A stretch of DNA of 64,000 bases from Halichondria panicea. Taxonomy: Eukaryota; Porifera; Demospongiae; Suberitida; Halichondriidae. The notes beneath the pieces were generated by a model. The model saw only the letters and a program-made list of their open reading frames with translations. It did no database searches and had not been told where the DNA came from. How positions within the stretch are numbered: position 1 is the stretch's first letter; each line of letters starts with the position of its first letter. Location of the stretch: positions 4,031,442 through 4,095,441 of the forward strand of contig NC_087379.1 in assembly GCF_963675165.1 (NCBI RefSeq). The letters run 5' to 3'. The translations under genes were made by a program, and so were the position numbers. Shown here one piece after another: positions 25,621-57,300 of the stretch.

Positions 25621-27987
25621 TTAAATTTTGTCCTTCTGCAGTATATATGATAGCAAGTCAATAATATAGTGGCAAATACATGTAGTGTGCATATAACAAA
25701 CTAGATATAGTCACAACTATAATTATAAACATCATGCAGACTGCATGCATACAATCAAAATCACACTTACCAATATTTGCAAATCATCTGACTTTACAAG
25801 CTTGAATTCCTTCACAAAGTAGTAGAAGTGCTTGTGGCATGAACTGAGCAAGTACATCTGAGGGGAAGAGAAATCAGTATCGAGTTCTACAACACAAAAA
25901 AGATTTCACCTTAGGTGGTTATAGTGCATGCCGGATATGGTATTATGAGGTTCGCATGCATGATGCAGACATACAAGTCATGTACATGCAATCATGACAA
26001 CCGTCTATGATAACTGCATGCATGAATGCCATAAAGAGCTAAACCCTTGGCTAGAGGTGTGGTTATATATGTATAGCACGTCTCATACATACATGTATAG
26101 ACAAATAATACGTAAGCCCAAGAGGAAAACCTATTATAGTGAGGGAAAGAGGGTGTTGCAATTTTATAACAAGAGGCTAGATCATGCAATAAACGCACTA
26201 TATACTTTATAGCAGCCAGGAGCCGAGTCAGAATACACATGCATGCAAACAGACAGACTAGTTATAACAGACAACCTATAATTGCAATTATGTGCAGAAG
26301 TGCATGCGTGGTGCCAATCCTAGTTAAGGCTTTAAAAAATTCAGCATCAATCACATACCACTTCTGATGGCAGTGAGCTAGAGTGGTGAATGAAGGCATG
26401 AATGAATACACGATATAACCGAGTCAGCATCTTCTGACACAGTGGAACAAAGTTTTTATGAAAGTCCATGTCTGCATAAAAGTATAACACACATGCATAT
26501 ATTAAGCCTATAAGCATGTAAACATGAATAAAGAAAGAACATGTCAAGTGTTGTTTATACTTTTTTATATACCTTCTACAGTGGGAAGTATGTATATACT
26601 CCATGTGGATTTTTTTCCTTACCCACTCTAACAGCCTTTCAACATACTGCAATACAGCGATTGAGTATACTCTAATATAAGGGAAAGAACTTACGTCTAC
26701 AGCAGAGAGTCGTAGAGGGCTTGTCAGCTCATCTGTCCAATAGTAAATAATGGTACCTGACATTAGGGGACACTTGCACTCATTGTAAACTACAGATATC
26801 ATGGCTGCAATTCGATGATGGAAATTCACCAAATTAACAGCTATCCAGTGGTTTAGATCAACATCTTTCGGACACTTGACTCCCTCTTGAGCATCAAAGT
26901 TTGAATCCTTCGCAGCCTGTTGAATTTAAGAATGAACCATTGGCAAGATATATATACGTACCATTGTAGACATAATTATAGCAGGGATCTGACTTAGTAA
27001 ATATAAAGGTTCAGAACTACTGTAAAACTATGAGTTTACAGAATATGAGGCAGTATACAGAGGATTGCAAATGCCTGTAATATAGAGCCTACATGTATAG
27101 CCTCGTCCCAAGATGATTTTTGTCTAATATTTATGGTTCGACCTAGCATTACATTAGAGAAAAATCAGCCTGGTGATACAGGAACATTTGACTGTAAATA
27201 ATTATTCTACAAATTGTGTGTCTAAATGCCTCTGGTTTTGATAGACTGTTGCAACACCACCCACTTTCAAGAGTTCACTTTGGAAAGCCTCAGAGTTCCA
27301 TCTTTTCTTCTGAGATGAGCTTCCAGTATCTTGGGATGACACAAACTGGTTTATGCCCTTTTCCTTTGAATTAAGACACAGCCTGTACGTCAGAAAAGAC
27401 TGAATTCTAAACGATGTACATTACAGATAATGTAAATCTTAGTACGGACGAAATCAATGAAGTACAATAGTCTCAGCTAGATCTAGATCAAAAACATGGG
27501 CCAAACTAGCTGCTCTACAGTTAACGATTATTATTGTGATTATGTGCTGTCTGTAAAGTACTTCAAGGCACTTTCACAGGTGTTACAATGTATATACATA
27601 CGATGGCACAGCATACTAATTTACTTCCTGGACAAGCCTAGTCAGCAGCAGATGACCCCCCATCCCAACTCCTAGCTTTGTGATGATCTAGTCCTCCAAC
27701 ATTAGAAAAGACTGACCAGTAAATCCATTCTCTACAGAACAGTAGCAGTTCCTTTAAACAAGACTAGCTAGGACACACGTTGCAATTGTCATACAATATA
27801 TATATATAGTATGCTTCTATGTTACAATGCTACCAGTACGGTTACGTAAACAGAGTTTAAGACAACTTTACATGTACACATGCACGTACGTATATAGAAT
27901 CAGTATTCCAGTACCTTCAAATAATTTGCAATCTTTCTTCGAAATTCCTTTGTTCAGTAACCACACCTTCAGTTCCTCACAGTCCAT
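25621..27987 (-). CDS. SAM domain - MOB domain fusion protein with one in-frame TAG
   Basis: Exons 27987-27915, 27731-27625, 27363-27265, 26916-26695, 26646-26580 (donor unsure), 26471-26359, 25857-25771 and 25635-25621 join in phase. Residues 1-60 form a SAM domain (MDCEELKVWLLNKGISKKDC, ENGFTGQSFLML, KLGVGMGGHLLLTRLVQE). Residues ~93-260 match MOB proteins, closest by eye to MOB3 (DVDLNHWIAVNLVNF, CPLMSGTIIYYWTDE, YVERLLEW, LTRLYRVFIHAFIHH, SCHKHFYYFVKEFKL). MOB proteins bind and activate NDR/LATS kinases; SAM domains oligomerise. A TAG at 27690-27688 interrupts the SAM domain, although both sides stay in frame and in register. The gene is therefore a recent pseudogene, a null allele, or a sequence error. 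The MOB segment between YVERLLEW and HKNF is divergent: the best phase-compatible donor is GTAGAA at 26579, and a stronger GTAAGG at 26622 does not keep frame. Confidence 0.7.
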
Positions 27988-33092: not shown

Positions 33093-33234
33093 GCTAAGGC
33101 TAGGCTAGAGCAAGCCTTTTCCGGTTAAGGTTGCCGCGAGTCTAAGTCTACAAGTAACGCCCGATTATGTGCTCCTTTGTAAACTGTTTTGCACATGCGC
33201 TAAATAGATCACTAGGTCTAGGGTAGCGCCAGCG

Positions 33235-33530
33235 ATCGGAGTACGGCCGATGTTTTTAATATACGTAATGATAGACCTTGATTAGTGCTCTCTAGTAGTG
33301 GTCTTGGATTTCCAGTGCCTTGCTTGGTTCTCTAGATATGAAGGCCGAAAGTAGCTGGGCGTGGTCTGGCAAGTGGGTAAAGGGTGCTAGGTATGAAAGT
33401 GGCTTAATGGGGGTCAGAGGTCAGTTTGGAAAAGGGTTGGGCTTGCAAATGAGAATCCGGATGAGGACATGTCTGGGTCAGAGGTCAGATGGGCTGGGCA
33501 TCCGGATGACACTGTACTGCGGTTTTCAGA
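33235..33530 (+). repeat. Dispersed repeat, shared in inverse orientation with 45590-45770
   Basis: Blocks such as CTTGATTAGTGCTCTCTAGT, AAAGGGTTGGGCTTGCAAAT, GAGAATCCGGATGA and GGTCAGAGGTCAGATGGGCT reappear as reverse complements, in the reverse order, at 45590-45770. It is therefore a two-copy interspersed repeat with no coding capacity seen. Confidence 0.75.
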
Positions 33531-34661
33531 GTTCTTGCATCTCCAATGTCTAGAGCGGAAGTACCTGTCACGTGAACCGTTACGTAACAAGATTGAAGTC
33601 TAGCTTCATTCTAAACCGATTTTTTCCCAATACATGATTTGGGAGAAAATCAACCTTGGAAATAGCCTTTGCAAGCCTTTTGCATCACCACTGAAGCTAT
33701 CCTTGAGATTGTAAGCACTTCCAATAGTTTTGTGAGCTACTATTAGTAACACAGGACTGGATGTCTGGAGCTAAGAGAGAGAGATTCTACTGTCTATATG
33801 ACTCATCACTGACATCAGCTTGCAGCAACACAAAATGAGTAGGCAGACCGGGGTAGTCACTTCAATCAGTTCCTTATATAATACTGAGAAGCTACACTCT
33901 TATTTCAGACTTTTCTGGATAACTAGTAACAAATAATTTTGTCTGTAAATGAAAACTCATGTAAAAAAACTTGCCTGACTCAGCAATATTTGTGCTCCCG
34001 TGATGTTGTCCAACCAGAGGAGGCGCGAAGCACTTAACCTTTGCTCATTAGGTCTCTAATTGCCGTTGTGTTAATTGCATGCCAGTCTCATGAATTAGCC
34101 GCCCTTCGAGTTTACTTTCAGCTTATTTAGAGGGACGTGCAAGAACCGACGGTCATGATGGTACATGTACATGCTTTTTCTTTTGTATCAGGCCGATTGG
34201 TATGATGACATGTACGTATTTGACTCATGTCTTGTAGGTGTAGGGTATAATGCAGATTTGTAACTTCCTTACTCTGGGTTGCCACTCGTACTCGTACTTG
34301 GCAGTCGAGGTCAAAGTTCAAGAAAACGCACATGATACACAATAATACCCCCCCCACAATAATAAAGATACACATGATCAGAGCTAAAAAGTAGCTCTAC
34401 TGACTTAGTAGGAAATACATACTTGTATAAGTGTAGTGTATAAGCACTCTGTTTGTGTGCATACTCTGTTTGTGTGCTTACGCCCAGTGCAAGAAAGGGA
34501 GCACCACTGAAAAAGTGGATACATGTACGTACCCAATAGTGTCCAATTGACGGGCTAGATGTACATAGAATAATGTTACAGAGGCATTTGCAACTATTTT
34601 TGACTGCCATAACAAAATGTATTCAAAACAGGCTGGCATTCTTTTAAAATAAAGCACGTAC
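33531..34661. other. Stretch without a supported gene
   Basis: No exon was supported here. At 34085 there is a partial relative of the 20728 hairpin (AGTCTCATGAATTAGCCGCC). A minus-strand frame around 34330-34270 (LNFDLDCQVRVRVATQ) followed by a GTAAGG donor could be an exon of the unidentified gene upstream, but phase and family support are lacking. Confidence 0.4.
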
Positions 34662-35573
34662 GTTTGCCCAGCTGTCTGGTAAGAGCTGATGCTGGCGATG
34701 GGTCCCACATCAAACTGGAGAGAGATGCCAGGCTTGCTCCCGTGTCTCTGGCCCTGTGCACACTCCTCACTGCCTACAATGAACTCAGTCTGTGAACCAG
34801 AAGAAAACACCGATAATTTCTCAGCATTTAGAGAGATTTTAGGGAGGTAGATACATAACTACTGAAGCCTCTCAAAAAAGAGAGGTGGCAGAGGTTGTTT
34901 AGACATTACATGTCAGCATTGCACAAAGTTTGAGTGGTCTACATAACGGACACCTTCGGGGAACAACGTTTTGGCTTTGATAATCACTAGTACGTGCATG
35001 TATATATACGGGTACTTTTTTTACCCATTACATGTCCTGTATGCCCAATAGTAACTCAATCTCTTATTTACACCCCAATAGGTGCTAAGTCAGGTACGTA
35101 CACATGTAGTAAAGCTGACCTGAACTTTCCGAAGGAGTCAACCACTTTTTTCTGTGTAAGGACAGGACAGGAGAACATTATAATTACCAAAACAAAAAAA
35201 CACGTGCAGCACTGACGTAGCACGCACATAAACAATACATGAACAGCTAAGAGAGAGAGCCAGTGTTTTCTTGGCTTGCTAGCTAAAGCTCTAATACAAG
35301 TGAGGTGGAACAGTAACAGTATGCAGTTCACACTATCTGCAGTGGAGTTACCTGGCAGCAGTCTCCAGTATTGATATCCTGCCACGCCGCCATTCTCAAT
35401 CTGGGCGGCCATACTCTTGCTACCTCCACCTGGTGTTACGCAACCTGATTGGTCAGATCCATGAGAAGGCGTTGTATGGAGAAAATGTTGCTGGACAGGT
35501 GTGCTTGAGCTGCAGAAAAGTGCGACAAAAAGCCATACACTTACAGTAACGGACGATCGATCAAGTCGATCAT
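34662..35573 (-). CDS. Unidentified minus-strand gene, partial exon set
   Basis: Three exons with good splice signals are seen: 35573-35545 (MIDLIDRPLL), 35509-35351 (SSTPVQQHF ... GGGSKSMAAQIENGGVAGYQ ... WRLLP) and 34789-34662 (TEFIVGSEECAQGQRHGSK ... ISLQFDVGPIASISSYQ). A further short exon near 35147-35105 (VVDSFGKFR) is needed between the last two to keep phase, but its ends are unsure. Codon use and splice sites look like real coding sequence, and I do not recognise the family. There is no signal peptide at the proposed start. The 3' end was not found; one candidate acceptor near 34275 gives a frame that stops after about 16 codons. Confidence 0.4.
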
Positions 35574-36162
35574 CCATCATTGGTATAGCCCAGAAGGTCG
35601 AATACAAGACCTTTTCGTCCCTAATGTTTATTGTGCCGGGACTCATCAGTGGACTGCACGCGCACTCAGTAAATGTACTTTGCTCATACTATTAGCGGTT
35701 TCTAGAACTAATAAATAATTACTTGCATCCAGTGTAATTTAATGGAAAGTGGTCATGGCAATAGGCAAATGGACTAAGTGTACATGTAGTTATGGTCCAA
35801 CAGGACAGATTCTATGGCTATCTATGCAAATGTATGTGGTACATCATCACACAATAATTTAAACGGACTCCCAAATATTCGTTTAGCGGCAGGGGGGGTT
35901 CATTTAACCAATTAAATATTAAGTGGTGTAAATCATGTTACAAAGGGGTTGTATGGTAAGCATCAGTCAACCAATAAACACATTCTTGGCAATCACACTG
36001 AGACGGTAAAGACCCACTAGACAATAAACATTAAGTGACGTAGCTACATTCAAAGTTAGCTCCAAAAAACAGGCCTGCTTTCGAAAAAGGACCCACTTGG
36101 ATAAAAGTTCTGCAAGGGGCAAGAAAGTGCCTATTTCGACAAAAGACCAAGGGCTATATAGC

Positions 36163-36627
36163 CTATTTTCCTACAATTTGGCAGGCACGTATTTTGGGGC
36201 TGAAAGTGACATTGTCTGCGTCAGCATGACCTTCCTGGCACAGAACACAGTCAACACAGTCATCAATGCCACTACGTACACACACTTACAATGAGATGTC
36301 TCGGCAGCTCTTTGAGCTGGACAGGGTCCTTCTCCAGTCTGCGGAACAGCTGTGGGGGAGGGGGAGAGGTCACACGAAATTCTATGAGCCAATCATACGA
36401 GGGAATGCATACAGTAACTTACTCAGCCACACATAATTATAGGATAAGTGTAACGCTAGGAGGTGGAACGGTTATGCGCATCCTATACATGTAGGCACAC
36501 GTAGCTATTTAGGGCACCTCTCAGTATTTGTTTAGCCTTACGCAATGTTTTAGCGGCCTGAATACGGTACAAACATTACAAGTACGTACCTCTTCAGCTT
36601 GAGAGTCCTCTTGTGTGTTTGTCTGAT
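36163..36627 (-). CDS. Unidentified 3' exons (FRRLEKDPVQLKELPRH), duplicated at 39.3-39.6 kb
   Basis: Three exons, 36627-36590 (QTNTQEDSQAEE), 36349-36290 (LFRRLEKDPVQLKELPRHLI) and 36234-36163 (EGHADADNVTFSPKIRACQ..., stop TAG), join in phase. They have GT..AG introns of 240 and 55 nt and a good pyrimidine tract before the middle exon. No family is recognised and no 5' exons were found; a repeat copy (36640-36800) and a G-rich minisatellite begin just upstream. The first two exons are duplicated at 39276-39613. This may be the 3' remnant of a gene broken up by repeats. Confidence 0.4.
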
Positions 36628-36639
36628 CTGTAAGTACTT

Positions 36640-36800
36640 GCAGCCATTAATTTTAGACTTGAACTTTTGGCATTGATCTTTTTTAACAACACAATCACCA
36701 TCGATCATTACCCACTAATAATCATGATCAATGTTTGCTTTATGTTATGTAGCTTTGGCACCTCCACCGAGGCATCAGCACCTACGGTGCTTTCATTGGA
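36640..36800 (-). repeat. Dispersed short repeat, reverse copy of the DUOXA-intron element
   Basis: Its reverse complement matches 18833-19090 in block order (GAAAGCACC..GGTGCTG, GGAGGTGCCAAAG, GTGGGTAATGATC, TGCCAAAAGTTCAAG), but it lacks the ~40 bp that hold the possible DUOXA mini-exon. A half copy is at 44644-44745. Confidence 0.7.
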
Positions 36801-36940
36801 AAGGTAATTCTGAGAGCTACTGCATCAATATTATTAGTTTAGGAATTGAACATGCTCTCAAAAATGCTACTAAATAGGTGTGAGGCTCTACTTTAAATAG
36901 GGATAAATACCTTCATTAGCCTTCATTATGACTAATCACA

Positions 36941-37395
36941 GAGCCTGTGTGTGGGGGGGGGGGAAGGTTGTGTACAGTATATTAGCCATGAGTGTGTGTG
37001 TGAGGGGGGGGGGAGGTTGTGTACAGTATCTATGAGCCTGTGTGTGTGGGGGGGGGGGAGGTTGTGTACAGTATATTAGCTATAAGCCTGTGTGTGGGGG
37101 GGGAGGTTGTGTACAGTATATTAGCTATGAGCCTGTGTGTGTGGGGGGAAGGTTGTGTACAGTATATTAGCCATGAGAGTGTGTGTGTGTGTGTGGGGGG
37201 GGGGAGGTTGTGTACAGTATCTATGAGCCTGTGTGTGTGTGGGGGGGAGGTTGTGTACAGTATATTAGCTATAAGCCTGTGTGTGTGGGGGGGGGGGGGA
37301 GGTTGTGTACAGTATATTAGCTATGAGCCTGTGTGTGTGGGGGGAAGGTTGTGTATGTGTTGGGGGGGGGGGGGAAGTTGTGTACAGTATGCACA
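36941..37395. repeat. G-rich minisatellite, ~45-50 bp units
   Basis: About nine imperfect units share GAGCCTGTGTGTGTGGGGGG and AGGTTGTGTACAGTATATTA; G-run and GT-run lengths vary between units. Related units reappear at 37505-37605. The G-runs could form G-quadruplexes on the plus strand. Long plus-strand reading frames across it are repeat artefacts. Confidence 0.88.
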
Positions 37396-37700
37396 CCTTG
37401 CACGTAGGGGTGGTCCCAATATCGTCTCCTGCATAATCGAGTGATCCCTGTGGCTAGCCGTCAGTCGTGTCTAAGGCGGGTGCCCTCAGCTGGGGGGGGG
37501 GGGGATATTTAGCAACACAGCTCAATATGTACAGTACATTAGGTATAAAGCCTGTTGTGTGTGTAGGGGGGGGGGCTATGTACAGTACATTAGGTATAAG
37601 CCTGCCATGTACATACATGTAGGAGGTGATGAAGCAAAGTGGGTGATACCTAAAAATAGCTAACCACACATTACAGGGTTTATGCTAAGTCCTGGTAGGT

Positions 37701-37970
37701 CTTGAATAAACAAGATAGATCTTGAATAGAAATTGAGCAATAATTTAGAACCACAATGTACCTGTGCTGGACATGATGAAGTTAAAGACCTAGGGAGTTT
37801 TCTGATTTTAGTCAAGTCATTAATGTCTTACTATTTTTATCATACATCATGCTTCATCATGTCCAGCACCCTTACTATTTTTATCATACATGCTTCATCA
37901 TGTCCAGCACAGGCATTGTGGTTCTAAATTATTGCTCAATTTCTATTCAAGATCTATCTTGTTTATTCAA
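37701..37970. repeat. Large inverted repeat with ~80-bp arms
   Basis: The left arm (TCTTGAATAAACAAGATAGA ... TTGAGCAATAATTTAGAACC ... GTGCTGGACATGATGA) returns as its reverse complement at about 37891-37970. The spacer contains a short internal repeat of CATCATGTCCAGCACCCTTA. It is foldback-like with no coding sequence. Confidence 0.75.
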
Positions 37971-38136
37971 GCCAGCACCCTTACTATTTTTATATCATAC
38001 ATCAGGCAATAATTATTGAGAAAGCTCAACATTTTCCTGCTTATACAATGCTGTACATGATGAAGCAATACGAGTTATATAACTATATAAATTATGGAAG
38101 TGTATTAATTTTATAGAACAGCTATATCGATCAGAA

Positions 38137-38348
38137 TACCGTATAGCGGGTCATTTTCGTGGGGGTAAAATATTCGTTATTTTCGTGGGCAGGCTGACCT
38201 CCACGAAATTTTAACGTAGGCGTGGGCTTATCGGAACGTAGGAATGCCGTGCAGCCACGAGGCTAAACGAAATTTTTACTCACGAAAACCACCGTTTCTC
38301 GAGTTGAACGAATTTTTTACCCCCACGAAACTTTCCCGCTATACGGTA
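38137..38348. repeat. CCGTATAGCG-type MITE, copy 2
   Basis: It begins TACCGTATAGCGGGTCATTT and ends with CCCGCTATACGGTA. Internal TTCGTGGG and CCCACGAAA blocks are themselves inverted. It belongs to the family of 29029-29256 and 40295-40504. Confidence 0.85.
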
Positions 38349-38429
38349 CACATAACTATGACTTGACTAAAATCAGAAAACTCATGCTTCAACACAGTCA
38401 TCAATGCTACTACGTACACACACTTACAA

Positions 38430-39275
38430 AGAAATGTACTCTTGTTTAACCAAAGCAAGTGTAAATACATGACTATATCAAGAAAATTCAGCCCACCACT
38501 TCCCAACATGTGTCTTAATATCAGTGGACGTCCCCTACTTAAAGTTGACCACTACAAGTACCTTGGCGTGTGGATCTCTCACGACCTCTCATGGTCAAAA
38601 CACATAGAAGAAATGTGCAGAAATACCTGCAAGCAGGTTGGTATAATTTACCGACAGTTCTATGGCCACTCGTCACTAGAATGTTTTAAGACAACTCTAC
38701 ATCTCCCTTGTGAGATCAAAACTGGAATATGCTGCCCCTGTTTGGGATCCACACCAAAAAACAAATTCTCACAAAATAGAAAAAGTACAAAAGTTTGCCC
38801 TTAAAATCTGCACAAAACTTTGGAATATGGACTACGACTCCCTATTAGATACTGTGGACCTACCGTCCCTTTCTACAAGAAGATTGTACCTGAAGCTATC
38901 ATACCTTTACCAGGTAATAAATGGTAACTTTAAATTCCCTGATCCACCACTGGAAAGAAGAGTATGCCCTCTCAATCTAAGAAGCACAAAAAATATACAG
39001 TTTGAAAGACCAATTTGCAGAACAAATGCATATGCGAACTCTTTTTTCCCAAAGGCAATATCTGTGTGGAATGAATTACCACTGGAGCTGCAGGAAAGTA
39101 CATCGATTTTGTCATTTAAGAGAAATGTACTCTGTCACTTGCATTAGTATAATATTAGTCTTTATTTTTAATTTGTACTCGCTATTGTAAGTAATATATA
39201 CAGGGCGCACATTAGGTTAGCATAATATGCTACTAGTGTATCCATGCATTTTGCAGAATTATTATAAAAAAAAAA
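38430..39275 (+). mobile_element. 5'-truncated non-LTR retrotransposon (CR1/Jockey/L2-like), dead copy
   Basis: Only the C-terminal part of a reverse-transcriptase ORF remains: YKYLGVWISHDLSWSKHI in one frame, then LEYAAPVWDPH, IEKVQKFALKIC and FFPKAISVWNELPLE in another. The frame changes near 38700, consistent with a small deletion. The element ends at 39147 (stop) plus a short 3' UTR and a poly-A run at 39265-39277. No RNase H or endonuclease domain is present. It sits exactly in the duplicated splice-donor region (see 39276-39613). Confidence 0.85.
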
Positions 39276-39613
39276 AATGAGATGTCTCGGCAGCTCTTTG
39301 AGCAAGACAGGGTGCTTCTCCAGTCTGCGGAACAGCTGTGGGGGAGGGGGAGAGGTCACACGAAATTCTATGAGCCAATCATACGAGGGAATGCATACAG
39401 TAACTTACTCAGCCACATATAATTATAGGATAAGTGTAACGCTAGGAGGTGGAACGGTTATGCGCATCCTATACATGTAGGCACACGTAGCTATTTAGGG
39501 CACCTCTCAGTATTTGTTTAGCCTTACGCAATGTTTTAGCGGCCTGAATACGGTACAAACATTACAAGTACGTACCTCTTCAGCTTGAGAGTCCTCTTGT
39601 GTGTTTGTCTGAT
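39276..39613 (-). pseudogene. Duplicated exon pair disrupted by LINE insertion
   Basis: This is a near-identical copy of 36290-36627, with exons at 39613-39576 and 39335-39276 and the same intron. The middle exon carries changes (KHPVLL against KDPVQL). Its GT donor has been replaced by the poly-A tail of the LINE, while the severed flank (ACACAGTCATCAATGCTACT...CACACACTTACA) is still recognisable at 38387-38429. This copy cannot be spliced normally. Confidence 0.7.
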
Positions 39614-40016
39614 CTGTAAGTACGCAGGTACGCAATCACAATCACAATTTTACACCTGGCAGGGAACAAGACAGATCTAGCTGACACAATTTGTATGTAT
39701 ATACAACAATCATCACAACATCACTATATGCAATGCTGGATAGATATAATCATCTCACTTACCTTATTTTTCATAACTTGTGACAACCTAAAAATTGTGC
39801 CTAGGGTTTTTCCTCTGTGCTGGTCATGACCACGAAGTGACAACTCAGCTTGAAAAAAACCACACACCATTTTCTGTGTGCTGATGGTCAGCAAAGTGAC
39901 CCTAACCACAAAGTGACCAGGTAGCTCAGCTGAAAAAACCACAAACCACCACACTGGACAGCTAAAACACCTCAAGTATTATTTTTAGATTGTAGTTACA
40001 TCATTGGTTAGTTGCA

Positions 40017-40023
40017 TATAAAG
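40017..40023 (+). promoter_or_regulatory. TATA box of the transposase-Ulp1-PHD gene
   Basis: TATAAAG lies 95-101 nt before the ATG at 40118, placing a likely TSS near 40047. The downstream leader is free of ATG until the chosen start. Confidence 0.5.
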
Positions 40024-40117
40024 GCTACACAGTACACAAACAGCACTATTCATCTCACCAAACTCAGCAAGTTGATCTCACAGAGCAAGATATTCCAGGT
40101 GCAAAGAGAACTCTGCG

Positions 40118-43100
40118 ATGTACAGCATGGAAGACTCGCCTCTCACCCCAATAAAGGACTCAGAGGTTTGTACACCCTTGCTGTATGTACTTTGTGATAT
40201 ATAGAGTGGAAACTGCATTTGGTGAACCGCATTTGAAAACAACAAGTATGTATTGTATACACGGCAACTACATATAATGCTCAGAAACCGGATATACCGT
40301 ATAGCGTATAATTTTTGTGGGGCAAAATATTCGTAGTTTTCGTGGTTGAAGGTCTGACCACGAATATTTTACCCACGAATGAAGCGACCTTGCCTACCTT
40401 TACCTGCAGTGCAAGCTCCAACCACGAAAATATTACCCACGAAATGTCTCAATATTGCTGAACCACGAATATTTTGTCCCCCGAAAATTACCCGCTATAC
40501 GGTATGCTAAGAAATTTAACCCACCTGTATACAGGAACTTGAAGACTACTCTGAACAGGACAGGCTACAAGAGTCCGACTCGCCCCCTACTCCAAAGAGG
40601 AGATGTCTACAGGTGAGAAAATTAATAGTTACATCATCAGCACAACCACGTACAACCACGTACAGTGCATATAATTATACATATGTAGGCCCCCAATTTT
40701 TTCCATAAAATTGCCGCGAATTTCGCGTATTATATTTTGACTACGTGCTATATTGTTTTTCGCAGCTTATAATTGGTTGAAATCCGTCCCTATTTACGGT
40801 ATATGCACGTACATGTATAATTATATGCTAAATTTACCAGAGCAGACCATTATCACCCCCCTTCAGGATTCGCAACCAGACACACCCTTCTCCACTGTGG
40901 AATACCCTCAAGATTCGGACTACATTCTAACACCAATGGACATAAAATGTACTAATGCGCATGAAAAGGCGCTTTGTTTTCTTGATTTGAGCCAGTTGGA
41001 CGAGTTTGTCGAACGCCTCAATGAGATTCGTCAGTGCCCTGAACCAGCTTGTAGGGGTAACCTTGTTCCCACCTCAGTCAAGAGGGGAATAGGTGGAGTT
41101 GCAACAATAACATACAATTGTGACGGATGCCGAGGACAAGAGCTCACACTGGACACGTGCAAGGTACAAGAAGATGGAAGGAACAGTGAGATCACACGAG
41201 CACTGCATGTCGCCTTTATCATCAGTGGGTGTACCTTCACAACCTACACCAAGGTCTTACGCTACTCGCTGGGAATTCAGTCCACATACGACGACCGGTT
41301 TCAAGACACTATTCGCATTATGCACCCAGTGGTCAAAAAAATGGTGGATGAGATGTGCACAGAAGCCAAAGAGGCCATGAAACAAATGAAACCAGAAGAG
41401 CTAGGATCGTGGAAGAGAGCCGTCACTGTTGCAGATGGAGCATGGATGACAAGAGGTCATCATTCGAAGAACTTTACTTTCAGTATTAGAAATTATTTCA
41501 CAGGTGAATTGCTCTTTCGAATACATCTGTCTCAAAAGGGCGGAGACAATCTGTACAAGGGGACGTCCGAGGGAGCGGAGGGCTATGCAGCCAGGATACT
41601 CTTCCAGCAAGCCAAAGAACAGGGGATGAAATTGGAAATAAACTGGCAGGTAATGGTTATACTTAATGGCATTATATCTATGATTATAAGCGAGCTAGAA
41701 TGATGCAATTCCTGCCTTAATTTACAAAATAATTACACCAACCCCTAATTGGCAGGATGATGACTCCTCCACCTCAAAGGCCATAAGAGGTATCTACGAG
41801 GACGTAGAAATAATGATGTGTCGTGGACACGAGGGAAGGTCTCATCTCAACCAGTTGAAAAAGCTGATGCAAATGAAAGCGTTCACCTCTACAATGTTTA
41901 AAAGTCATCAAAATCACATTGCAGACATACAGAACAAGCCCTGCTCCTGTTCTGGAAAAAAGCACAAGAAAGGCTGCGGATGTTTCACTGACCAGTTCAT
42001 CAAAAACTCCAGAAATTTGTTCTCAAAAATTCTGTCGAACAGCGAGTCCAAAGAGGAATTTGAAAAAAAAACCCGTAGTCTCTACCATCATGCAATTGAT
42101 GAACACGTGTGGGATGGCGGATCTTGCGACTTTCATGCCCTAAAAGTGTGCAGCTGTGGAGAGTGCCCCGACAAAACAAACTTTGTGTGCGAGGGACAAG
42201 AGTACCACACACGGGATAAGCTGACATGTCCTTTCCATATGATGGCCTACAGGACGGAGATTGAGCACAGGGCTCGAAAGTCATCATCGCTGATCCACCC
42301 AGAACTAAAAGCAGGGCACACAAACTCGATGGAATCATCACACAACATCCTAATTCGATTTAGGCAGAAGCACATCTCCTTGGAAAAGAGTCACTACGAG
42401 CTCTCCACAGAGCTGGGCCTCCTTCAAGCCAACCTTACCTCAATGAGAAAAAACAAAGGACCTCATTACCACTGGATTCCTATGCTGTACCAAAGGTTGG
42501 GGCTGCCCCTCTATACAGGAATTGAGGATGCTCTGGAGAAGTACGGAAAATCCAGAGACAAGCAATTGAGAGAAATCAAAGAGGATAAGCACAAGAAGAG
42601 AAGGATACGATATAAGGTCAAGAGAAAGATGGACAGGGAAGAAAGAATAAAGTGGTCAAAGAAACTCGGTGATGCATACGGTTGTGAATGGAGGAGAAAG
42701 AGAACAAAGAAGGATCAAGCTGCCACGAAACTCTGCAAGTGTGGCTCCAGCGAACACAGAAACAAATCTCACAGAGACTGCCCACTGAACAAGCGACACG
42801 CAAGCAGGTCAGAGTTGTAATGAGATTTTAAAACAACATACAGACACGCAAAAAACATTGTGTCCAGTTAATATGATTGAAGCACACCATGCATGCATCT
42901 ATACAATTTACTGATCTGATGTCCGGGTTTCTTATTTACATGCAGGGATGCCAGGAGTCATCCTAAATCAGAGAAACAAGGACCTTCTTCAGCTGAATCA
43001 GATGAGTGAGTAATACGTACACATGAATGCATGTATACTAACAGAAGCAATGTGTAATGTACAGCAGCCGCCACAATGGGATTTTGTGGTGTGATTGTGA

Positions 43101-44395
43101 TAACATGTTCGCTATAAATATTTTTACAACACAGAAACAATGGGACAGACGCTAGTGTGAACAGGGACAGCAGTGACAGCAGTGAAAGCGACTTTGAGGA
43201 TCAAATTTTGCACGCAGAACGAGGCGAATGTATCTGCCCAAATCCCAAAGCACACAAGAGAAACTGCCCAGCGGGCAATAGGAACCGTGGGAAAAGGCTC
43301 TTCCAGACTTTCAAACCTGGAGACAAGGTAGCCATCCACGTTACGAGGTTGTCTGGGAAACACCTTGTCTGTCGCATTGCTCAAGTGACCAACAAGCGAT
43401 ACACACTCCATTCCAAGCGAGGGACCCTATTGAAGCGATTTGGAGGAAGTGAGCTACACAAATTGGGGGAAGACGAAGGCTACGAGATTCCCCTCGACAA
43501 CTGGCGCCAGAGCGAGGTCGTGTCAATCAGAGCACTGCAGGAAGAAGACATGGTGAGCTGCTCGTGTGCAATCGACACTCCAGACTATCTGTACGTGGAG
43601 GACGATGATTCAGAAGAGGACCCAGACACACAACAGGGTGATAACACTATTCAAACATCCATATACTGTCTGTCATCAACTGACATCAACAAGATTGATA
43701 GACCCACAGGATGGCTGAATGACATCGTCATCACTGCAAGCCAACACCTTTTGTACCAGCATTTCCCGCACATTGAAGGCCTACAGCCACCTACACTCCA
43801 AGCGATTAGAGGATTCAATGTGAACAAAGGAGAATTTGTTCAAATTTTAAACGTGAGCAATATGCACTGGTGTGTTGTGTCTACTGTTGGCTGTAGCCCG
43901 GGGCAAGTAAACGTCTACGACACCATGTACCGCAGCGTTCAGAAGTCAACGATTCCAATTATAGCAAGCCTGATGTTATGCACCTTACCCAACCTCACAA
44001 TCAACATGATGGATGTCGGTCTACAGAGAAACGGCTCTGACTGTGGTGTGCTAGCTATCGCCATTGCCTATGACTTATGTGCTGGGAACGATCCGTTGAC
44101 CGTGGTGTACGAACACACATCCACAAGACAACACCTGAAGGAGAGCCTCAAGAAGTGCTGCTTCGATCGCTTCCCAATAAGGAATTCGAGGACCTCAACA
44201 GGTGTGATCCACGCTGAGCATGTCCCCCTGTACTGCACATGCAGAATGCCCGAGGAAAACATCGAAGACGATCCTATGGCAGAATGTGATGTTTGCAAGG
44301 GGTGGTATCATCGATCGTGCTTGAGCATTCCCAACGAAGTGTTTCAAGTTGATGGCGTCGAATGGAAGTGCGAGGCATGCACAGAACAATCATAA
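40118..44395 (+). CDS. DDE-type transposase fused to Ulp1-like protease and PHD finger
   Basis: Six exons (40118-40165, 40535-40612, 40867-41649, 41756-42807, 42946-43005, 43135-44395) join in phase to 1,093 codons. Residues 1-42 are acidic/Pro-rich. Then comes a Cys cluster (CPEPACRGN ... YNCDGCRG) and a transposase core with acidic residues in VADGAWMTRGHHSKN, WQDDDSSTSK and NSMESSHN, typical of Mutator/Kolobok-like enzymes, plus CSCSGKKHKKGCGC and CSCGEC clusters. A basic linker and acidic Ser-rich exons follow. The C-terminal exon holds a Ulp1/C48 protease fold (His in NMHWCVVS, Asp in VNVYDTMY, Cys in NGSDCGVLAIA) and ends in a PHD finger (YCTCRMPEE ... CDVCKGWYHRSC ... WKCEACTEQS). A stop at 42818-42820 would end a transposase-only form if intron 4 is retained. 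Terminal repeats were not found, so mobile or domesticated status is open. Confidence 0.82.
40295..40504. repeat. CCGTATAGCG-type MITE, copy 3 (transposase gene intron 1)
   Basis: Ends TACCGTATAGCGTATAATTT and CCCGCTATACGGTA match copy 2; the interior carries TTCGTGGTTGAAG and several CCACGAA repeats. It fills most of intron 1 and stops 30 nt before exon 2. Confidence 0.85.
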
Positions 44396-45152
44396 CTCTA
44401 ATAATAGACTGCATGTATATAATTAATAGAATTGCAATATGGGATTAATAGCATAAGTAACCATACTATTGATTTCTAATCGTGAATGATGAAGTTCTCT
44501 GCAGTTTTTATTAACATTTTCGGCCACGGGAGTTATTCGAAAACAATACGTTGTCGTTGACAGCGTGCAATTTTGTCCTCCCCCGGGACACCCCTGAATT
44601 AAACGCTTCCCCCTCCCAGCTAAGAATCCTGTATGAAACCCTGTTAAATGAAAGCACCACAAGTGCTGATGCCTCGGTGGAGATGCCAGAGCTATACATA
44701 ACATAAAGCTCTACTAATACTAAATAGCTTTTATACATACTCCTAGTATTTACCATAAAAAGTTCTATTATACTGCATGTAACAGCGGCAATTGACTATG
44801 CGGCTTAGCAACCAGATGATATTTTCCAAAAGGGGGTGAAATGGCGGAAAGAGTGTAGCAACGTTATGACTAAATGTAAAAACTGATAAGAAGCTGTACG
44901 TAAATGCAGCACTATACAAATCTAGACATAGGCTTGAAACCCGTCCTCCCTTCTTTTGGGTGGACGGGCCACGGTTAGGGTTAGAGGCGTATATAGGAGC
45001 AGTATGGAAGCAATATCACCCCATCACGCATTTTGTGGTTTGCAGGACAACTCTCACACGGCAACTTGCCAGTATTGGTGCTGCGTGAATGCTAGATAGG
45101 GCTGCAACCCGTCTCCCTTTTTGGAGGCGGGCCACGCCCATCTACCCCCTAC
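44396..45152. other. Repeat-rich intergenic stretch
   Basis: It contains a half copy of the 18833-type repeat (44644-44745) and two partial GGGCGTGGCCCG-family copies (about 44930-44975 and 45075-45143), both in the same orientation. No gene is supported. Confidence 0.6.
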
Positions 45153-45308
45153 CTTGGGCAGCAGCCATTCCATTGAGGTTCTTCTCGATAAAGAGATAAG
45201 GTCCATCCCAATCACAATCCTCAGACCACCGCCTTTGGGTATCACAAATGAATGAGTAGCCAGCCCAGCAGACAATGGTGGAGACACTGCTCTGCCCTCA
45301 GGGGTTGT
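45153..45308 (-). CDS. Isolated candidate exon, unidentified
   Basis: This 156-nt open, phase-0 segment on the minus strand is bounded by CACAAG and by AAG/GTAGGG. It reads EGRAVSPPLSAGLATHSF then VIPKGGGLRIVIGMDLI and ends MEWLLPK. A GGGCGTGGCCCG-family repeat begins 10 bp beyond the donor, so neighbouring exons may have been displaced. It could equally be a chance frame or a pseudogene piece; no flanking exons were found. Confidence 0.25.
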
Positions 45309-45589
45309 CTTGTGTTGGAGAGAAGACACAATAATATACATATAACCTCCAATACGTGTATTTTTACTCTCCAATGCACTTGTACTTCCTCACCTGTGAT
45401 ACTCTGTAGAGTGCTGTCTTTGTCTATTTAGCACTGCCCTAAGGTATAGTATAGTAGCTAGCTACCTGGACCCCAGGCCGTACTTATTTGTATTTCTATA
45501 TTTTATTTGTATTTCTATATAAAGCACAGAGCCCAGCCCCTTTTTTCTGAGCTGACCTCTGACCCGTTTTATCTCGCTGACCTCTGAAC

Positions 45590-45770
45590 TCCAGTACTAC
45601 GTCATCCGGATGCCCAGCCCATCTGACCTCTGACCCAGACATGTCGTCATCCGGATTCTCATTTGCAAGCCCAACCCTTTTCAGTAAGGCACTGAAAATC
45701 CAAGACCACCACTAGAGAGCACTAATCAAGGTCTATCATCAGGTATATTAAAACATCGGCCGTAAATCGG
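45590..45770 (-). repeat. Dispersed repeat, inverse partner of 33235-33530
   Basis: The reverse complement carries the same GGTCAGAGGTCAGATGGGCT, ATCCGGATGA and GGTTGGGCTTGCAAATGAGA blocks. It ends about 35 bp before the start codon of the Cys-rich secreted gene, so it may supply part of that gene's promoter. Confidence 0.75.
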
Positions 45771-45805
45771 ATCGCTGGCTATACCTTATATTTTTGCCAA
45801 GAGCG

Positions 45806-47512
45806 ATGAAGCTGATTTTAGCTACAATCTGTTTCCAAATTATCTTTGCCTACTTGGTAATGGGCCAGAGAGAATGTGTCCCTGACCCTTGTGAATCAGC
45901 CGAGTGCCCTCGCTTCCTTAATGCTGATTGCAGAATTGATCCAGAAAATTGCACTGTCAAGTTTTTTTGGGGAGAAAGAAACGTCTCTGATCAATGTGCA
46001 GTGCCGACTTGTGACACAAGACAATGTGGAAAAAGTCGAGACTGCATAGAGAATGTTTTTCCACCTAGCTGCCCACAAGACAATCCGGAATGCCGACAAT
46101 ACATAAAAACCAGGTGCATGTTGAGACCTCAGTCGAGACCACTAACCTGTAATGATGTAAAATGTGAAGCTGGAATGACTTGTCACTTTCGAGAACGTGG
46201 AGATAGTTTTCCACCAGTAGTGCGATGCATACCTTCTGTACCGAAAGACTGCTCTGAGCTGAAATGTGACGATGGGTCCAGGTGTGTTCTGCAAGGTAGA
46301 AGGCCATTCTGTGTTCCCAGTGTCACTACTAGTCCTCCGACTACTACTAAACCTAACGATTGCTCTGAACTAAACTGCAAGCAAGATGAGATGTGCATTA
46401 TAAGTGGCACTACACCAACTTGTGTTCCCTTCACTACCCCTACGCCAGCTCCTGACTGCTCTGAGTTTGAGTGTAAAGATGATGAGATGTGTGTGCTAAG
46501 AGAAATGTCACCAATTTGCATACCTGCAACCCCATTTACGACAGTAACTACACCGACAAGTACAACTCCAAACTTTAATGTCATGGCGGAGTCTTGTAGC
46601 GAGCTAGATTGTCTTGCTTTTTTCACAGTATGTAATCAAGTCAATGCAAACTTTGCAGTTTGTGAAGAGCCTACGGAATGCACGGATGAGTTCAATGAGA
46701 GGTGCATGGACATTCATCTCGTTTGTGGTGGTACATCATTTGATACTGTAACTTGTGTTGTTCCATCCAGCTGCAACCAACTCACATGTAATGAAGAGCA
46801 AAATTGTATTGAATTTACATCTGGTAACAACATCATAGCACAATGTATAGAAAATACAGGTCCTATGTTCAGCTTGCGTTGTGAAGATCTCTCATGTCCA
46901 GAAGGTCAGGGTTGCCTAGCCAATGATTATCCTTCACTAAATCTTATTTTCGCTTCATGCATTGCCAATGACGTTTTGGATAGCATCGCTATCAGTATTG
47001 AATTGGCTTCGAGGATCCCGCAAACATGCTCCTCTCTTGAATGTGGAAATGAGAGTTGTATTGATATACAGAGAAATGAAAACCAGGTTCTCCAATCGTG
47101 CATTCCTCAAAATTGCTTAACTAATATGAACTGTTCAGCTGTCTTTGATCAATGCGTCTCCCTTACTGATCTCGACTTATTAGCTGCTCCTGAGTCAATT
47201 TGCGTACCAACAGTATTTCAAGCATTGGTAACCAATAAATCATGCAAAGAAAATGAAAGAGTTTGTTCAGAGGGCTTGGAGTGCCAAGATGTATATATAG
47301 ACGGGAACCTTATCGGCACAGTTTGTAATACTCCAGTACCACCACTTGGCAGAACGTGTGACGAAATTGAGTGTATAGGTGAAAATGTAGGTTGTGTAAT
47401 AAACGAGATTCCTAGTAGGCCTGATTTGGCCCAACTGGCTTCGTGTATTGACAATTTCGATGTAATAACTACGAGCATTATATCAGGACTTCGTGCTCTT
47501 GGCCTGATTTGA
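45806..47512 (+). CDS. Secreted cysteine-rich repeat protein, intronless
   Basis: A single open frame of 568 codons starts MKLILATICFQIIFAYLVMG, a clear signal peptide ending before QRECV. The first module, CVPDPCESAECPRFLNADC ... VKFFWGERNVSDQC, matches the CFADPC modules of the VWC/TIL gene. Then follow six or more short repeats of the form C-[SN]-E/Q-L-x-C, a Met/Arg-containing core, then P-x-C-[VI]-P (for example CSELNCKQDEMCIISG and CSEFECKDDEMCVLRE), resembling follistatin-N/EGF-like mini-domains. Thr/Pro-rich linkers separate them. The C-terminal third has looser Cys repeats (CEDLSCPEGQGCLA, CDEIECIGENVGCVI). It is probably an extracellular matrix or mucus protein. The lack of introns, against multi-exon neighbours, suggests either a large single exon or a retrocopy. 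An in-frame TTG precedes the ATG but is not used. Confidence 0.8.
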   Translation: MKLILATICFQIIFAYLVMGQRECVPDPCESAECPRFLNADCRIDPENCTVKFFWGERNVSDQCAVPTCDTRQCGKSRDCIENVFPPSCPQDNPECRQYIKTRCMLRPQSRPLTCNDVKCEAGMTCHFRERGDSFPPVVRCIPSVPKDCSELKCDDGSRCVLQGRRPFCVPSVTTSPPTTTKPNDCSELNCKQDEMCIISGTTPTCVPFTTPTPAPDCSEFECKDDEMCVLREMSPICIPATPFTTVTTPTSTTPNFNVMAESCSELDCLAFFTVCNQVNANFAVCEEPTECTDEFNERCMDIHLVCGGTSFDTVTCVVPSSCNQLTCNEEQNCIEFTSGNNIIAQCIENTGPMFSLRCEDLSCPEGQGCLANDYPSLNLIFASCIANDVLDSIAISIELASRIPQTCSSLECGNESCIDIQRNENQVLQSCIPQNCLTNMNCSAVFDQCVSLTDLDLLAAPESICVPTVFQALVTNKSCKENERVCSEGLECQDVYIDGNLIGTVCNTPVPPLGRTCDEIECIGENVGCVINEIPSRPDLAQLASCIDNFDVITTSIISGLRALGLI

Positions 47513-54300: not shown

Positions 54301-57300
54301 AAAACATTAATGTGACTAGATACATCTATAGAGGTTGAGCATCTTCTAACTTTTCCAATGCACTTTTCCTGACAACTACCGGAATTGTGTACAAGCTACA
54401 TGTAGCCTATACTTACATCTACGTACTATCATGCTCTAAACCACCACATAATGATAGCACTCACACTCTCCTAGGAGGTGACCCAGCCCTGAAGGAGGAC
54501 ACCGTCCCAATGATCTGCTCTCTATCATCCAAGTTGGCAAAGATGATGGTGTTCTTGTTGGCCCTGGTGGCAATAAGGATGCCATTGGGGAGGGTTTGTT
54601 CCTGATTTAGACGCTCTATCTGCACTACGTCTCGCAGTGGGATCACCACCCACACCACACCCACCAACTGCGTGCAATATATTGAGATGAGTCAGTGAAT
54701 TACACTGAGCATGTGTACATGGAGCAATGTGTGTGTTAATTATATGCACTACGTTGGTATTGATCATTGTGTTTCTTACACCCATACGTATCAATTCATC
54801 CAAGCAACCCTTTGGCTACAGTACAATTAAGTGTGTACGTACCTTGCTGGAGAAACATATGTAGTTTGGTGAGCAGTAGAGCTTGCCCAGGATGGGTGCT
54901 TTTGAGGCGGGGTTCCACATGGTGCACTCACAGTAGCCATCCAGCCCCTCAGTCTCAGGCAGTCGAAAAGTGGATCTGCAGTGAATACAGATCAAGTGAA
55001 TGCAAAGTACAACGTATTGTGTAGTACATGACAGACAATTAGTGATATATGTACCTGCCAAATGTTAAGGGGTACAAGTGTATGTACGTGTATAAAGCTG
55101 ACTGAGTGTATTGATGATGAAACGTAAACTTCTTGGGAAAGAAATGTTAAACAGAAAGTCTTACGTACGCACAAACAATTACAGTACAGTAGAACCTCGA
55201 TTATCCGGCCCTCCATTATCCGGAACCTCGATTATCCGGCTTGGCATTTTTTTATCAGATTAGAAAATGGGCGTGTCCCTAAAATGCGCATGCGCGTTAC
55301 AGCTGTTACCATGGAGACATACCTGCTTATCTTATGCGCATGTGGCACTGCTGTTTATCAATAAAGTGGGTGGATCAAGGCGTGGTTTATCTATTCAATT
55401 ATCCGGCATATTCACTTATCCGGCCTGCTTCTGGAACCAAGGTGTCCGGATAATCGAGGTTCTACTGTATTGTACCTACCTGTACATGTACAGCTGTGTT
55501 GCAGAATCTACAGTGCCATCATGCACATGTATGTGCTCAGCTCATAGCTGGTCTCCCTCACCTGTATTGCTCCGTGAGCTTCCTGGCATCGAGGACTTGG
55601 CTGAGAGGAGTTTTGGCCACAGAGGCAGCCCGCAGCTCTGAGAGCAGGGACTGGTGGTCTGATTTAGTACTACCCAATAGCACTCTGAGGAAGGAGGGGT
55701 GATGTAAGTAAGGAGAGATAGTGCTGCACAATAACTACATGTACAACGTCATGCAAGGACTCACTCCTTGGTGGCAATCTTGGCGAGCTGCTCCATGAGC
55801 TCGAGGGTCTCCCACCTTTTCATAAACATGGAGAAGTGATGCTCCTTACCTCCACTCTTGACAAAGAGCCCCTCACTCAGACGAGCTGATTCAGAAAATA
55901 TACCCTGTGTGTGGGAAGAGCGCAGGAACGTGCATACACACAAAATGCTGGTACAACACCAGTCCACATCCTACAAAGTCACTTGAGCAGTTTTCCCATG
56001 CGTAAAAAAATGACATGCATTGACAACACAAATACCCTAAAATGGACCGCTGTCTATATAACCCCCAGATGGACAGACTATCCCAACAGTAGAACCCCAA
56101 TCATTAATTTTGGCTGGGCAAATTTCTCCACTAGAGGATAAAGTAATTAAATGCGTATACGCAAACAACACCTGTTACCATGGAGATAGGTTTATCAATT
56201 CGCTTAGATGGATTATCTGATCTGGGTCTGGAACAAAGGGTGGTCCCCCGATAATCGAGGCTCTATGGTACTGTGGACAAATTAGCTACTCCCCAAGTGT
56301 CTAGCTTTAATTAATCGAGCAGCATTATGAAAGTTACATGCATTATAACTATAGCAATGCGAGTTCTCTGGTGCACACTAACCCAGACCCTCACATGTCC
56401 ACACTCCCCACAGACCCTCACACAACACACTCCCCACAGACCCTCTCACACAACACGCTCCCCACAGACCCTCTCATGTCCACACTCCCCAAGACCCTCT
56501 CACACAACACATTTTCCACAGACCCTCACACAACACACTCCCCACAGACCCTCTCACACAACACGCTCCCCACAGACCCTCTCATGTCCACACTCCCCAC
56601 AGACCCTCTCACGCAACACACTCTCCACAGACCCTCACACAACACACTCTCCACAGACCCTCTCACGCAACACGCTTCCCCAACACCCTCTCATGCAACA
56701 CACTCCCCACAGACCCTCTCACGCAACACACTCCCCACAGACCCTCACACACAACACACTCCCCACAGACTCTCTCACGCAACACACTCCCCACAGACCC
56801 TCACACACAGCACTCTCCCCACAGACCCTCTCATGTTCACACTCCCCACAGACCCTCTCACACAACACACTCCCCACATACTCCCTCACACAACACACTC
56901 CTCACAGACTGTCTCACAACACACTCCTCACAGACTCTCACACAACACACTATCCACATACCCTCTCATACAACACACTCACGTTAATGCTGGTCCACCT
57001 GAGCACAATCATTATCTCAGCCCCCATGAAGTAGGAGTAGAAGCAGAGATGGTTTACAGATAGGTACATCCATCCTTGTCGCGGCAGAGAGCTTTTCCAA
57101 TAGCTGCAAGAGTAGTCTGTGGGCCAAGGAGTGCTCATGAGTTACAAATTGTACTGCTTTGTACTGCAATAATACTACCGCTATTAAATTACACCACAAA
57201 GGTACGACCGTGTACGTACATGTATCTTAGCTATAGAGCATACCATGCACTACCTTTCTACGCAGGCCAGGAGCAGAAGTGGGCATGGGGACAAGGCTAA

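Follow-up and report, generated by a model that had tools for sequence, protein, structure and literature searches.

Analysis of the window, the whole 64-kb stretch of DNA considered here, indicated with a probability of roughly 60% that it carries a Kolobok-superfamily DNA transposon of the cut-and-paste type, in which a single transposase polypeptide terminates in a C-terminal Ulp1-like protease and a PHD finger. With such an element the superfamily would gain a Ulp1-PHD branch, its published lineages carrying other partners as far as the available part of PMC9587614 describes them; the same protease-finger pair is found in this one genome downstream of two unrelated transposase classes.

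Gene model and domain organisation

The gene of the window copy (copy A) consists of six forward-strand exons within positions 40118-44395, a span treated in the earlier note which corresponds to the gene only, the whole element being about three times longer. The spliced coding sequence of 3,282 nt encodes 1,093 amino acids plus a stop, all five introns are bounded by GT-AG, and phase is kept across every join. Exon 1 (40118..40165) supplies the start codon and is followed in the gene model by exon 2 (40535..40612) and exon 3 (40867..41649), the latter coding for an N-terminal cysteine cluster and the first part of the DDE transposase, including D232. The gene model and alignment assign to exon 4 (41756..42807) D304, the CxxH motif at residues 325-328, zinc-finger-like cysteines, E496, the end of the transposase and a basic linker with a zinc-knuckle-like motif. 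Exon 5 (42946..43005) encodes linker, as does the beginning of exon 6 (43135..44395), in which Pfam and alignment then place a conserved middle region (~residues 735-860), the Ulp1-like domain, the PHD finger and the stop. Retention of intron 4 would lead into an in-frame stop at 42818..42820, 10 nt beyond the exon 4 donor, and so to a putative transposase-only product; this stop, to which the earlier note had drawn attention, was present in all three copies displayed (A, B and D), and has no counterpart in L065 and L066, two relatives with single open reading frames.

The transposase part, with residues D232, D304, C325RGH328 and E496, matched PF20700 (E 9e-7, in exon 3), a family labelled 'Mutator-like' transposase in Pfam, and its profile retrieved one chain from among solved structures, at an uninformative E of 0.35. 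The C/DxxH motif between the second D and the E reads CRGH in the window copy and CGGH in L065, L066 and a further relative, L067. Cys/His clusters at residues 366-379 and 427-464, ahead of E496 and with many conserved columns, contain putative zinc-finger residues, and the window protein has no cysteine between D232 and D304. No nuclease domain was detected by Pfam in the gene, in its relatives or in four longer frames from the left portion of the element, and neither a piggyBac transposase domain nor the Gypsy-type integrase domain (rve, PF00665) was matched in Pfam by the window proteins. Rfam and tRNA scans of the 64-kb window were empty. A viral or prokaryotic origin was rejected: scans seeded by two short peptide patterns for each part found relatives of neither transposase nor tail in viral contigs, and the equivalent scan for the transposase found none in genome contigs.

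Proteases of the Ulp1 type (peptidase C48) deploy a catalytic His-Asp-Cys together with a Gln serving the oxyanion. Alignment and profile search placed a domain of this kind at 43709..44227, with H918, D936, Q971 and C977 in the window copy, the four residues being invariant in all six aligned members. Scores against PF02902 (C48) fell under the curated cut-off of 20.7 bits both for the window protease (11.3 bits, E 0.31) and for L065 and L066 (16.9 and 16.6 bits); five of the six aligned members matched at E up to 1, the best at E 8.9e-5, and YopJ-acetyltransferase models fitted the window protease slightly better than did PF02902 (E 0.041 and 0.0046). When a family profile of the protease part was compared with solved structures, ULP proteases came first (best E 5.2e-6). 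Judged from its sequence, the domain is a diverged Ulp1-like protease, the predicted substrate of which could be another ubiquitin-like protein instead of SUMO.

The C4HC3 PHD finger (44228..44392; C1041, C1043, C1058, C1061, H1066, C1069, C1086 and C1089) scored 28.3 bits against PF00628 (cut-off 24; E 1.8e-6) in the window copy, while the fingers of L065 and L066 remained under that cut-off at 18.7 and 19.7 bits; all eight ligands are conserved in the six aligned members. High matches of the PHD family profile to solved structures include SPP1, PHF2, BPTF and TAF3, each a reader of H3K4me3. At the four positions of the window finger which we take to correspond to the cage, Y, M and W are kept and one is Glu.

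Proposed role of the protease-PHD tail

We infer for the tail a function in H3-tail targeting and local removal of SUMO-like modifiers. The transposase would bind the terminal repeats, cut at TTAA and re-insert at TTAA, while the PHD finger would bind the H3 tail and thereby tether the complex to (probably active) chromatin; there the protease may locally strip SUMO, or a modifier resembling it, from host factors of silencing or repair or from the transposase, and this local removal of SUMO would ease expression, integration or repair.

Eleven of 100 Ulp1-PHD matches in this genome stand behind an integrase (rve) domain, and this recurrence behind an unrelated transposon enzyme hints that the pair may help transposons deal with chromatin. 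A more tentative generalisation, to which we give rather less than an even chance, is that Ulp1-PHD constitutes a transferable chromatin-handling cassette taken up separately by unrelated transposases (Kolobok, Ginger-type and perhaps MULEs with a downstream PHD), de-modification plus histone reading then being a general, selected step of transposition in the lineage. Since the pair recurs behind two transposase classes, the older proposal that ubiquitin/SUMO pathways participate in transposition (PMC2836005) becomes testable; in the single-ORF relatives the protease and the PHD finger lend themselves to separate mutation, and possible substrates for excision and integration are available in small nonautonomous relatives.

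It seems somewhat unlikely that the tail acts mostly against silencing, its protease stripping SUMO from piRNA or heterochromatin factors at the element's own copies with the PHD finger as anchor. Both the involvement of the SUMO ligase Su(var)2-10 in Piwi-guided transposon silencing in the fly (PMC7272611) and the recurrence of the tail behind an unrelated integrase here speak in its favour, but the same facts would fit repair, self-deSUMOylation or the steering of integration. Considerably less probable is a RAG2-style brake, whereby the PHD finger would block target capture until displaced by an H3K4me3 tail: the RAG2 finger is indeed described both as recruiting to H3K4me3 and as inhibiting transposition (PMC11844651, preprint), but RAG belongs to a different superfamily, and the finger of the window element sits behind a protease.

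Continuity of the fused reading frame

The earlier proposal of transposase, Ulp1-like protease and PHD finger within one six-exon frame was borne out by other copies and relatives in the genome. The frame is retained through all six exons in two (D and E) of the four other near-complete copies: their exon indels are all multiples of 3, intron 3 measures 646 nt as against 106 nt in the window copy, and the aligned exon 2 donor is not GT, a GTGAG donor that is also in phase lying 9 nt downstream (D displayed). Copies B and C contain an additional 50 nt in exon 3, with consequent loss of frame. In L065 and L066 one ORF without interruption (1,109 and 1,210 aa) holds all three domains, for which Pfam scans recorded PF20700, PF02902 (sub-threshold, E 0.006-0.007) and PHD. 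Because D and E keep the frame and L065 and L066 are single ORFs, the three-domain fusion is independent of splice guesses.

In a two-gene alternative of the kind seen in two-protein transposons, the transposase would terminate at the stop that follows exon 4, and Ulp1-PHD would be encoded by a gene of its own. This arrangement would accommodate the in-frame stop, exon 4-5-6 joins predicted from sequence, and the location of the Ulp1-PHD part of L067 in a different frame. It is nonetheless improbable, given the uninterrupted ORFs of L065 and L066 and the joined frame preserved in D and E; moreover, the first Met in the exon 6 frame occurs only within the conserved middle region, and a single BLAST stretch between the window protein and L066 (residues 82-738) runs continuously from the transposase into the exon 6 linker.

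At 12 of 16 transposase loci of the window element's lineage, Ulp1-PHD follows on the same strand within 5 kb, a count that includes the window copy and copies B-E (five of the 12) and leaves aside seven weaker places. Values of dN/dS between copies A and D, based on 98 changes, were 0.49 for the whole protein and 0.37 for the Ulp1 part, and those between L065 and L066 were 0.64 for the transposase and 0.53 for the middle region plus Ulp1; selective constraint on the fusion protein would appear weak at best.

Element ends, target site and superfamily placement

The comparison of terminal repeats and target-site duplications suggested in the earlier note gave a positive result in part. The whole element occupies ~12.6 kb (33215..45785, forward strand), its left end being approximate through degeneracy and its right end exact. 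A left terminal inverted repeat with a degenerate tip (33215..33534) and a right one (45579..45785; terminus ...GATCGCTGGCTATACC) align as the inverted pairs 33219-33324/45788-45683 (88.8%) and 33429-33534/45682-45579 (91.5%), the left repeat including a 104-bp stretch missing from the window's right end; at their right ends, copies B, C, E and F have 104 bp of it and D has 83 bp. The right end is common to copies B-F, beyond whose TTAA the sequences of B, C and F differ and those of D and E form one common flank; an inverted left end was seen only in copy A, the stretches read in B-E containing none. The termini, 5'-GGTATAGCC ... GGCTATACC, fit the pattern 5'-RR ... YY-3', here GG...CC.

TTAA stands next to 14 of the genome's 18 exact termini, which are not all independent insertions, while neither flank of the window copy has it (TTAT at 45786..45789 on the right, degenerate on the left). 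Of seven small relatives, one (C6:6878605-6878957) has TTAA on both sides, and another, on C10, has TTCA on both sides, a 4-bp duplication whose junction aligned without a gap to three insert-free loci (empty sites); the remaining five have no clear matching flank pair. At the element edges no pair of target duplications measuring 7 bp or longer was found.

The TTAA-type 4-bp target, the GG...CC ends, the CxxH motif and the zinc-finger residues together place the element in Kolobok, a placement by features as distinct from a tree with named Kolobok sequences. TTAA duplication is shared with piggyBac and does not discriminate, 5'-RR ends being what distinguishes Kolobok (PMC9587614); zinc-finger residues between C/DxxH and the last E are a further Kolobok feature, absent in Kolobok1 (PMC9587614). 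One of the 15 places where YqaJ is matched in this genome has PF20700 857 bp upstream, as in KolobokE.

The earlier note named MULEs and Zisupton-type elements as known carriers of Ulp1; the TTAA target, GG...CC ends and CxxH of the present element are Kolobok-like and point away from both. MULEs duplicate 8-11 bp of target, as against the 4 bp found here, and a MULE identity was rejected on this size and on the lack of a PF10551 match. A Mutator-like element with a Ulp1-PHD tail, the least probable of the alternatives, could draw on the Pfam name of PF20700 and on the Ulp1 published for hydra, lancelet and plant Mutator elements (PMC2836005), but has against it the TTAA-adjoined termini, the short duplication with empty sites, and window proteins that gave no PF10551 match at E up to 10 in a genome with 31 such matches.

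Comparison with known systems

The window element resembles KolobokE, D, P, H and 0, as described in PMC9587614, in its TTAA targets, 5'-RR/YY-3' ends and C/DxxH, in having zinc-finger residues ahead of the last E, and in an accessory domain that follows the transposase. However, the partners given for those lineages in the available part of that source are DnaQ, lambda exonuclease, His-Me nuclease, RecQ or KolX, with no Ulp1-PHD among them. Two features of KolobokE, D and P (PMC9587614) are missing here, namely the accessory nuclease and a second CCHC finger after the first D, the latter because no cysteine lies between the first and second D. Kolobok elements of Xenopus likewise have TTAA flanks and span 6.8-13.9 kb at full length (Table 5 of PMC6004289), a range within which the 12.6 kb of the window element falls; THAP, C2CH and H2CH motifs are given for them, and Ulp1 is unmentioned in the main text (PMC6004289).

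RAG1/RAG2 similarly couples a transposase-derived enzyme with a PHD finger, one that reads H3K4me3, but this finger resides on a separate subunit of a Transib-related system without a protease (PMC11844651, preprint), unlike the window fusion. The hydra, lancelet and plant Mutator elements also carry Ulp1 on a DNA transposon, but their transposases belong to another family and their target sites differ in size; according to the legend of Figure 1e in the relevant report, Ulp1 and PHD were aligned across Ginger1 and Mutator transposases (PMC2836005).

The architecture, which the earlier note could not name, has a precedent for its tail in Ginger1-9_HM, where again an intron-containing gene encodes one transposase protein that ends in Ulp1 and PHD; its core, by way of contrast, is a Gypsy-type integrase (rve), which the window proteins lack (PMC2836005). 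A C-terminal Ulp1, accompanied by PHD in one family, is a Ginger1 trait, and its presence here denotes a shared module without proving Ginger1 membership. Among the papers listed, the literature searches, which did not extend to Repbase, yielded no Kolobok relative with Ulp1, and Ginger only as a precedent for Ulp1 plus PHD. New on this reading is a Kolobok element with Ulp1-PHD; a Ulp1 plus PHD tail on another transposase was already known from Ginger1-9_HM as described in PMC2836005.

Evidence for a Single Fused Protein

The earlier note had read a transposase, an Ulp1-like protease and a PHD finger in one spliced frame at 40118-44395 (+), and that frame was upheld, its six exons and five GT-AG introns yielding 3,282 nt and 1,093 residues. 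In a Pfam scan, exon 3 matched the PF20700 transposase at E 9e-7, and exon 6 contained a PHD finger that passed the cut-off (E 1.8e-6). Pfam alone did not recognise the Ulp1 domain of the window copy. Nor did Pfam provide a name for a conserved middle region (approximately residues 735-860) N-terminal to the protease domain.

Three lines of sequence evidence support the three domains forming one protein. A DNA search of the 131-Mb genome assembly, whose introns and genes point to a eukaryote and whose contig C3 carries the window, was made with window positions 41760-44395. It returned four near-complete copies besides the window copy (A), at 99, 99, 96 and 96% identity; a sixth copy was truncated where contig C39 ends, and the other five matches were short. 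In copies D and E the frame stays open across all six exons and, as aligned, encodes 1,090 residues; the exon indels are multiples of three despite an intron 3 longer by 540 nt. The alignment gives both a non-GT donor at exon 2, and an in-phase GTGAG donor lies 9 nt onward (seen in D). Copies B and C have acquired 50 nt in exon 3, and their frame is lost.

Two diverged relatives at 37-41% identity, L065 (1,109 aa) and L066 (1,210 aa), are both uninterrupted, each carrying in a single open frame PF20700, the C48 domain PF02902 (E 0.006 and 0.007, below the cut-off) and a PHD finger (E 0.0018 and 0.0009, likewise below it). In a third relative, L067, the Ulp1-PHD part sits in a different, overlapping frame.

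When 51 transposase matches were grouped by place and seven places with E > 1e-18 removed, at least 12 of the 16 loci kept had an Ulp1-PHD match on the same strand within 5 kb downstream, five of these 12 being the window copy and B, C, D and E. This pairing was computed from 13 of the 100 Ulp1-PHD matches listed; inspection of the others by eye revealed none near the four partnerless or the seven removed loci. Three 69-bp stretches (L017-L019; C1:7316103, C1:7715161 and C1:7917023) match a portion of exon 4 (window 42597-42665) at 83% identity; they may be ancient fragments or a piece that was domesticated.

Ulp1-Like Domain, PHD Finger and Selection

The tail was aligned for six Ulp1-PHD sequences, namely the window copy, copy D, L065, L066, L067 and L008, the last a locus behind an integrase domain. 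The His, Asp, Gln and Cys of the Ulp1-like domain were invariant in all six, as were all eight zinc ligands of the PHD finger. Against solved structures, the protease-part profile matched ULP proteases with E values of 5.2e-6, 0.0065 and 0.016, and also the acetyltransferase AvrA (0.02) and SENP1 (0.13-0.19). PF02902 matched five of the six members with E no higher than 1 (8.9e-5 for the best of them), and models of YopJ-type acetyltransferases, the fold of which is related to that of C48 proteases, matched four (best 0.017). Because the YopJ-type model outscores C48 on the window copy (0.041 vs 0.31), the domain may perform chemistry other than proteolysis. With the PHD-part profile, the fingers of SPP1, SHL, PHF2, EBS, BPTF and TAF3 ranked high; in alignment with the methyl-lysine cage positions of PHF2, the window finger retains Tyr, Met and Trp, with Glu at the fourth position.

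Values of dN/dS, obtained by a counting method from small numbers of changes, would fit with constraint acting on the two catalytic parts. Comparison of the window copy with D gave 0.49 overall (35.5 synonymous and 62.5 other changes), with 0.51 for the transposase core, 0.97 for the linker and 0.37 for the protease, the PHD value being undefined (one change); L065 and L066 gave 0.44 overall, 0.64 for the transposase, 0.33 for the linker, 0.53 for the middle region plus Ulp1 and 0.15 for the PHD. The two linker values are thus discordant.

Element Ends and Target Site

Homology among copies reaches far outside the gene, to a right end ...GATCGCTGGCTATACC common to six copies, after which comes TTAA (in the window, TTAT). 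Farther out, the sequences of A, B, C and F all differ, and D and E have a common flank. An inverted version of this end at ~33215-33534 in the window implies an element of ~12.6 kb; among the copies compared, the window copy alone showed the left inverted end.

The genome contains 18 instances of the exact terminus GGTATAGCCAGCGATC, not all of them independent insertions; TTAA directly precedes 14 of the 18, and in reverse reading the pattern occurs 0 times. Seven small elements (~280-390 bp) share these ends; read by eye, the flanks are TTAA on either side in one of them, TTCA on either side in another, and without a clear matching pair in the remaining five. The TTCA-flanked element lies inside a repeat, and its flanks, joined via one TTCA, align gaplessly at the junction with three insert-free stretches at 73-74% identity; two of these stretches, located within copies B and C, are almost the same. 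The paired TTCA and these gapless stretches indicate that insertion duplicates 4 bp.

B and C (C2:8.59 Mb and 3.32 Mb) are 99.96-100% identical across ~15 kb, C being broken by a run of N, and D and E (C2:4.65 Mb and C8:3.74 Mb) are 99.2% identical across ~16 kb, right flank included. In both pairs of these 15-16 kb units a right inverted end was found and no left one. The D/E sequence past the right end includes a back-to-back pair of terminal repeats, and matches to the inner repeat, oriented as in a left end and situated 38-44 kb leftward of D and E (C2:4622985 and C8:3783240), may, as candidates only, belong to these copies.

Within the element, frames at 38367-39144 resemble by eye a non-LTR reverse-transcriptase protein in its C-terminal portion, with an A-run at the end and no Pfam match; direct repeats of 348 bp, 98.9% alike (36290-36637 and 39276-39623), flank them. 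Tandem arrays with strong strand skew occupy 36941-37355 (46-bp unit, 8.7 copies) and 56400-56980 (28-bp unit, 21 copies). An open frame of 586 aa at 45752-47509 (+), ATG at 45806, starts ~20 bp beyond the right end, which would fall in its promoter or 5' leader; it has a signal-peptide-like start (by eye) and repeated Cys-rich units, and a Pfam search extending to E 0.01 found nothing in it. The nearby frames at 2-1168 (-), 4073-6693 (-) and 26350-26925 (-), comprising an MFS transporter, kelch-repeat and protein-kinase frames and Mob1/phocein, are ordinary host genes.

The Tail as a Shared Module

At least 100 genome stretches match exon 6, from scoring of the best 99 of 230 candidates; the window's stretch is among them, and some loci appear as two pieces. 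Of the 100 matches listed, at least 11 had an rve integrase domain (best 150 of 389 candidates) within 5 kb upstream on the same strand, a link of proximity and not of common reading frame, and eight had PF20700 so placed: the window copy, B-E, L065, L066 and L067. Among the matches listed, no tail had both upstream, and downstream and opposite-strand controls gave 0 rve and 0 PF20700. The 11 rve-linked tails, by their similar frames and spacing, look like mostly copies of one family. At least three of 31 MULE-domain matches (C6:1292361, C17:4152032 and C1:5965386; tables compared by eye) had a PHD match ~2 kb downstream on the same strand, from the best 150 of 379 PHD candidates; these three PHDs are absent among the Ulp1-PHD matches listed (99 of 230 candidates scored).

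Since PMC2836005 describes Ginger1-9_HM as carrying Ulp1 and PHD, the tail is already known for Ginger1; none was found on a Kolobok lineage in the literature searched.

Proposed Mechanism and Superfamily Assignment

By analogy with the superfamily, the DDE core would excise from TTAA and insert into TTAA. The PHD finger is predicted to bind an H3 tail, and the protease domain would trim a SUMO-like modifier. Two uses of the tail seem likeliest, action against SUMO-dependent silencing and help with repair after cutting, with no firm ranking of them. On the former, PMC7272611 describes Su(var)2-10 as acting in Piwi silencing, and a repair role is suggested for Ginger in PMC2836005; the RAG2 PHD, which according to a preprint (PMC11844651) recruits as well as restrains a transposase-derived enzyme, offers a precedent for such a finger.

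The element and its relatives display, at the level of sequence, the features by which PMC9587614 defines Kolobok, namely TTAA duplications, 5'-RR and YY-3' ends, C/DxxH between the second D and E and, in nearly all lineages, a zinc finger preceding E. Judged by this published definition, there is a strong though not conclusive case for membership. The 12.6-kb length falls inside the range of 6.8-13.9 kb that PMC6004289 gives for full-length Xenopus Kolobok elements. The Pfam name of PF20700, 'Mutator-like', does not contradict the assignment, because at one of 15 YqaJ matches in this genome PF20700 also lies 857 bp upstream of the exonuclease domain, an order which is the KolobokE arrangement.
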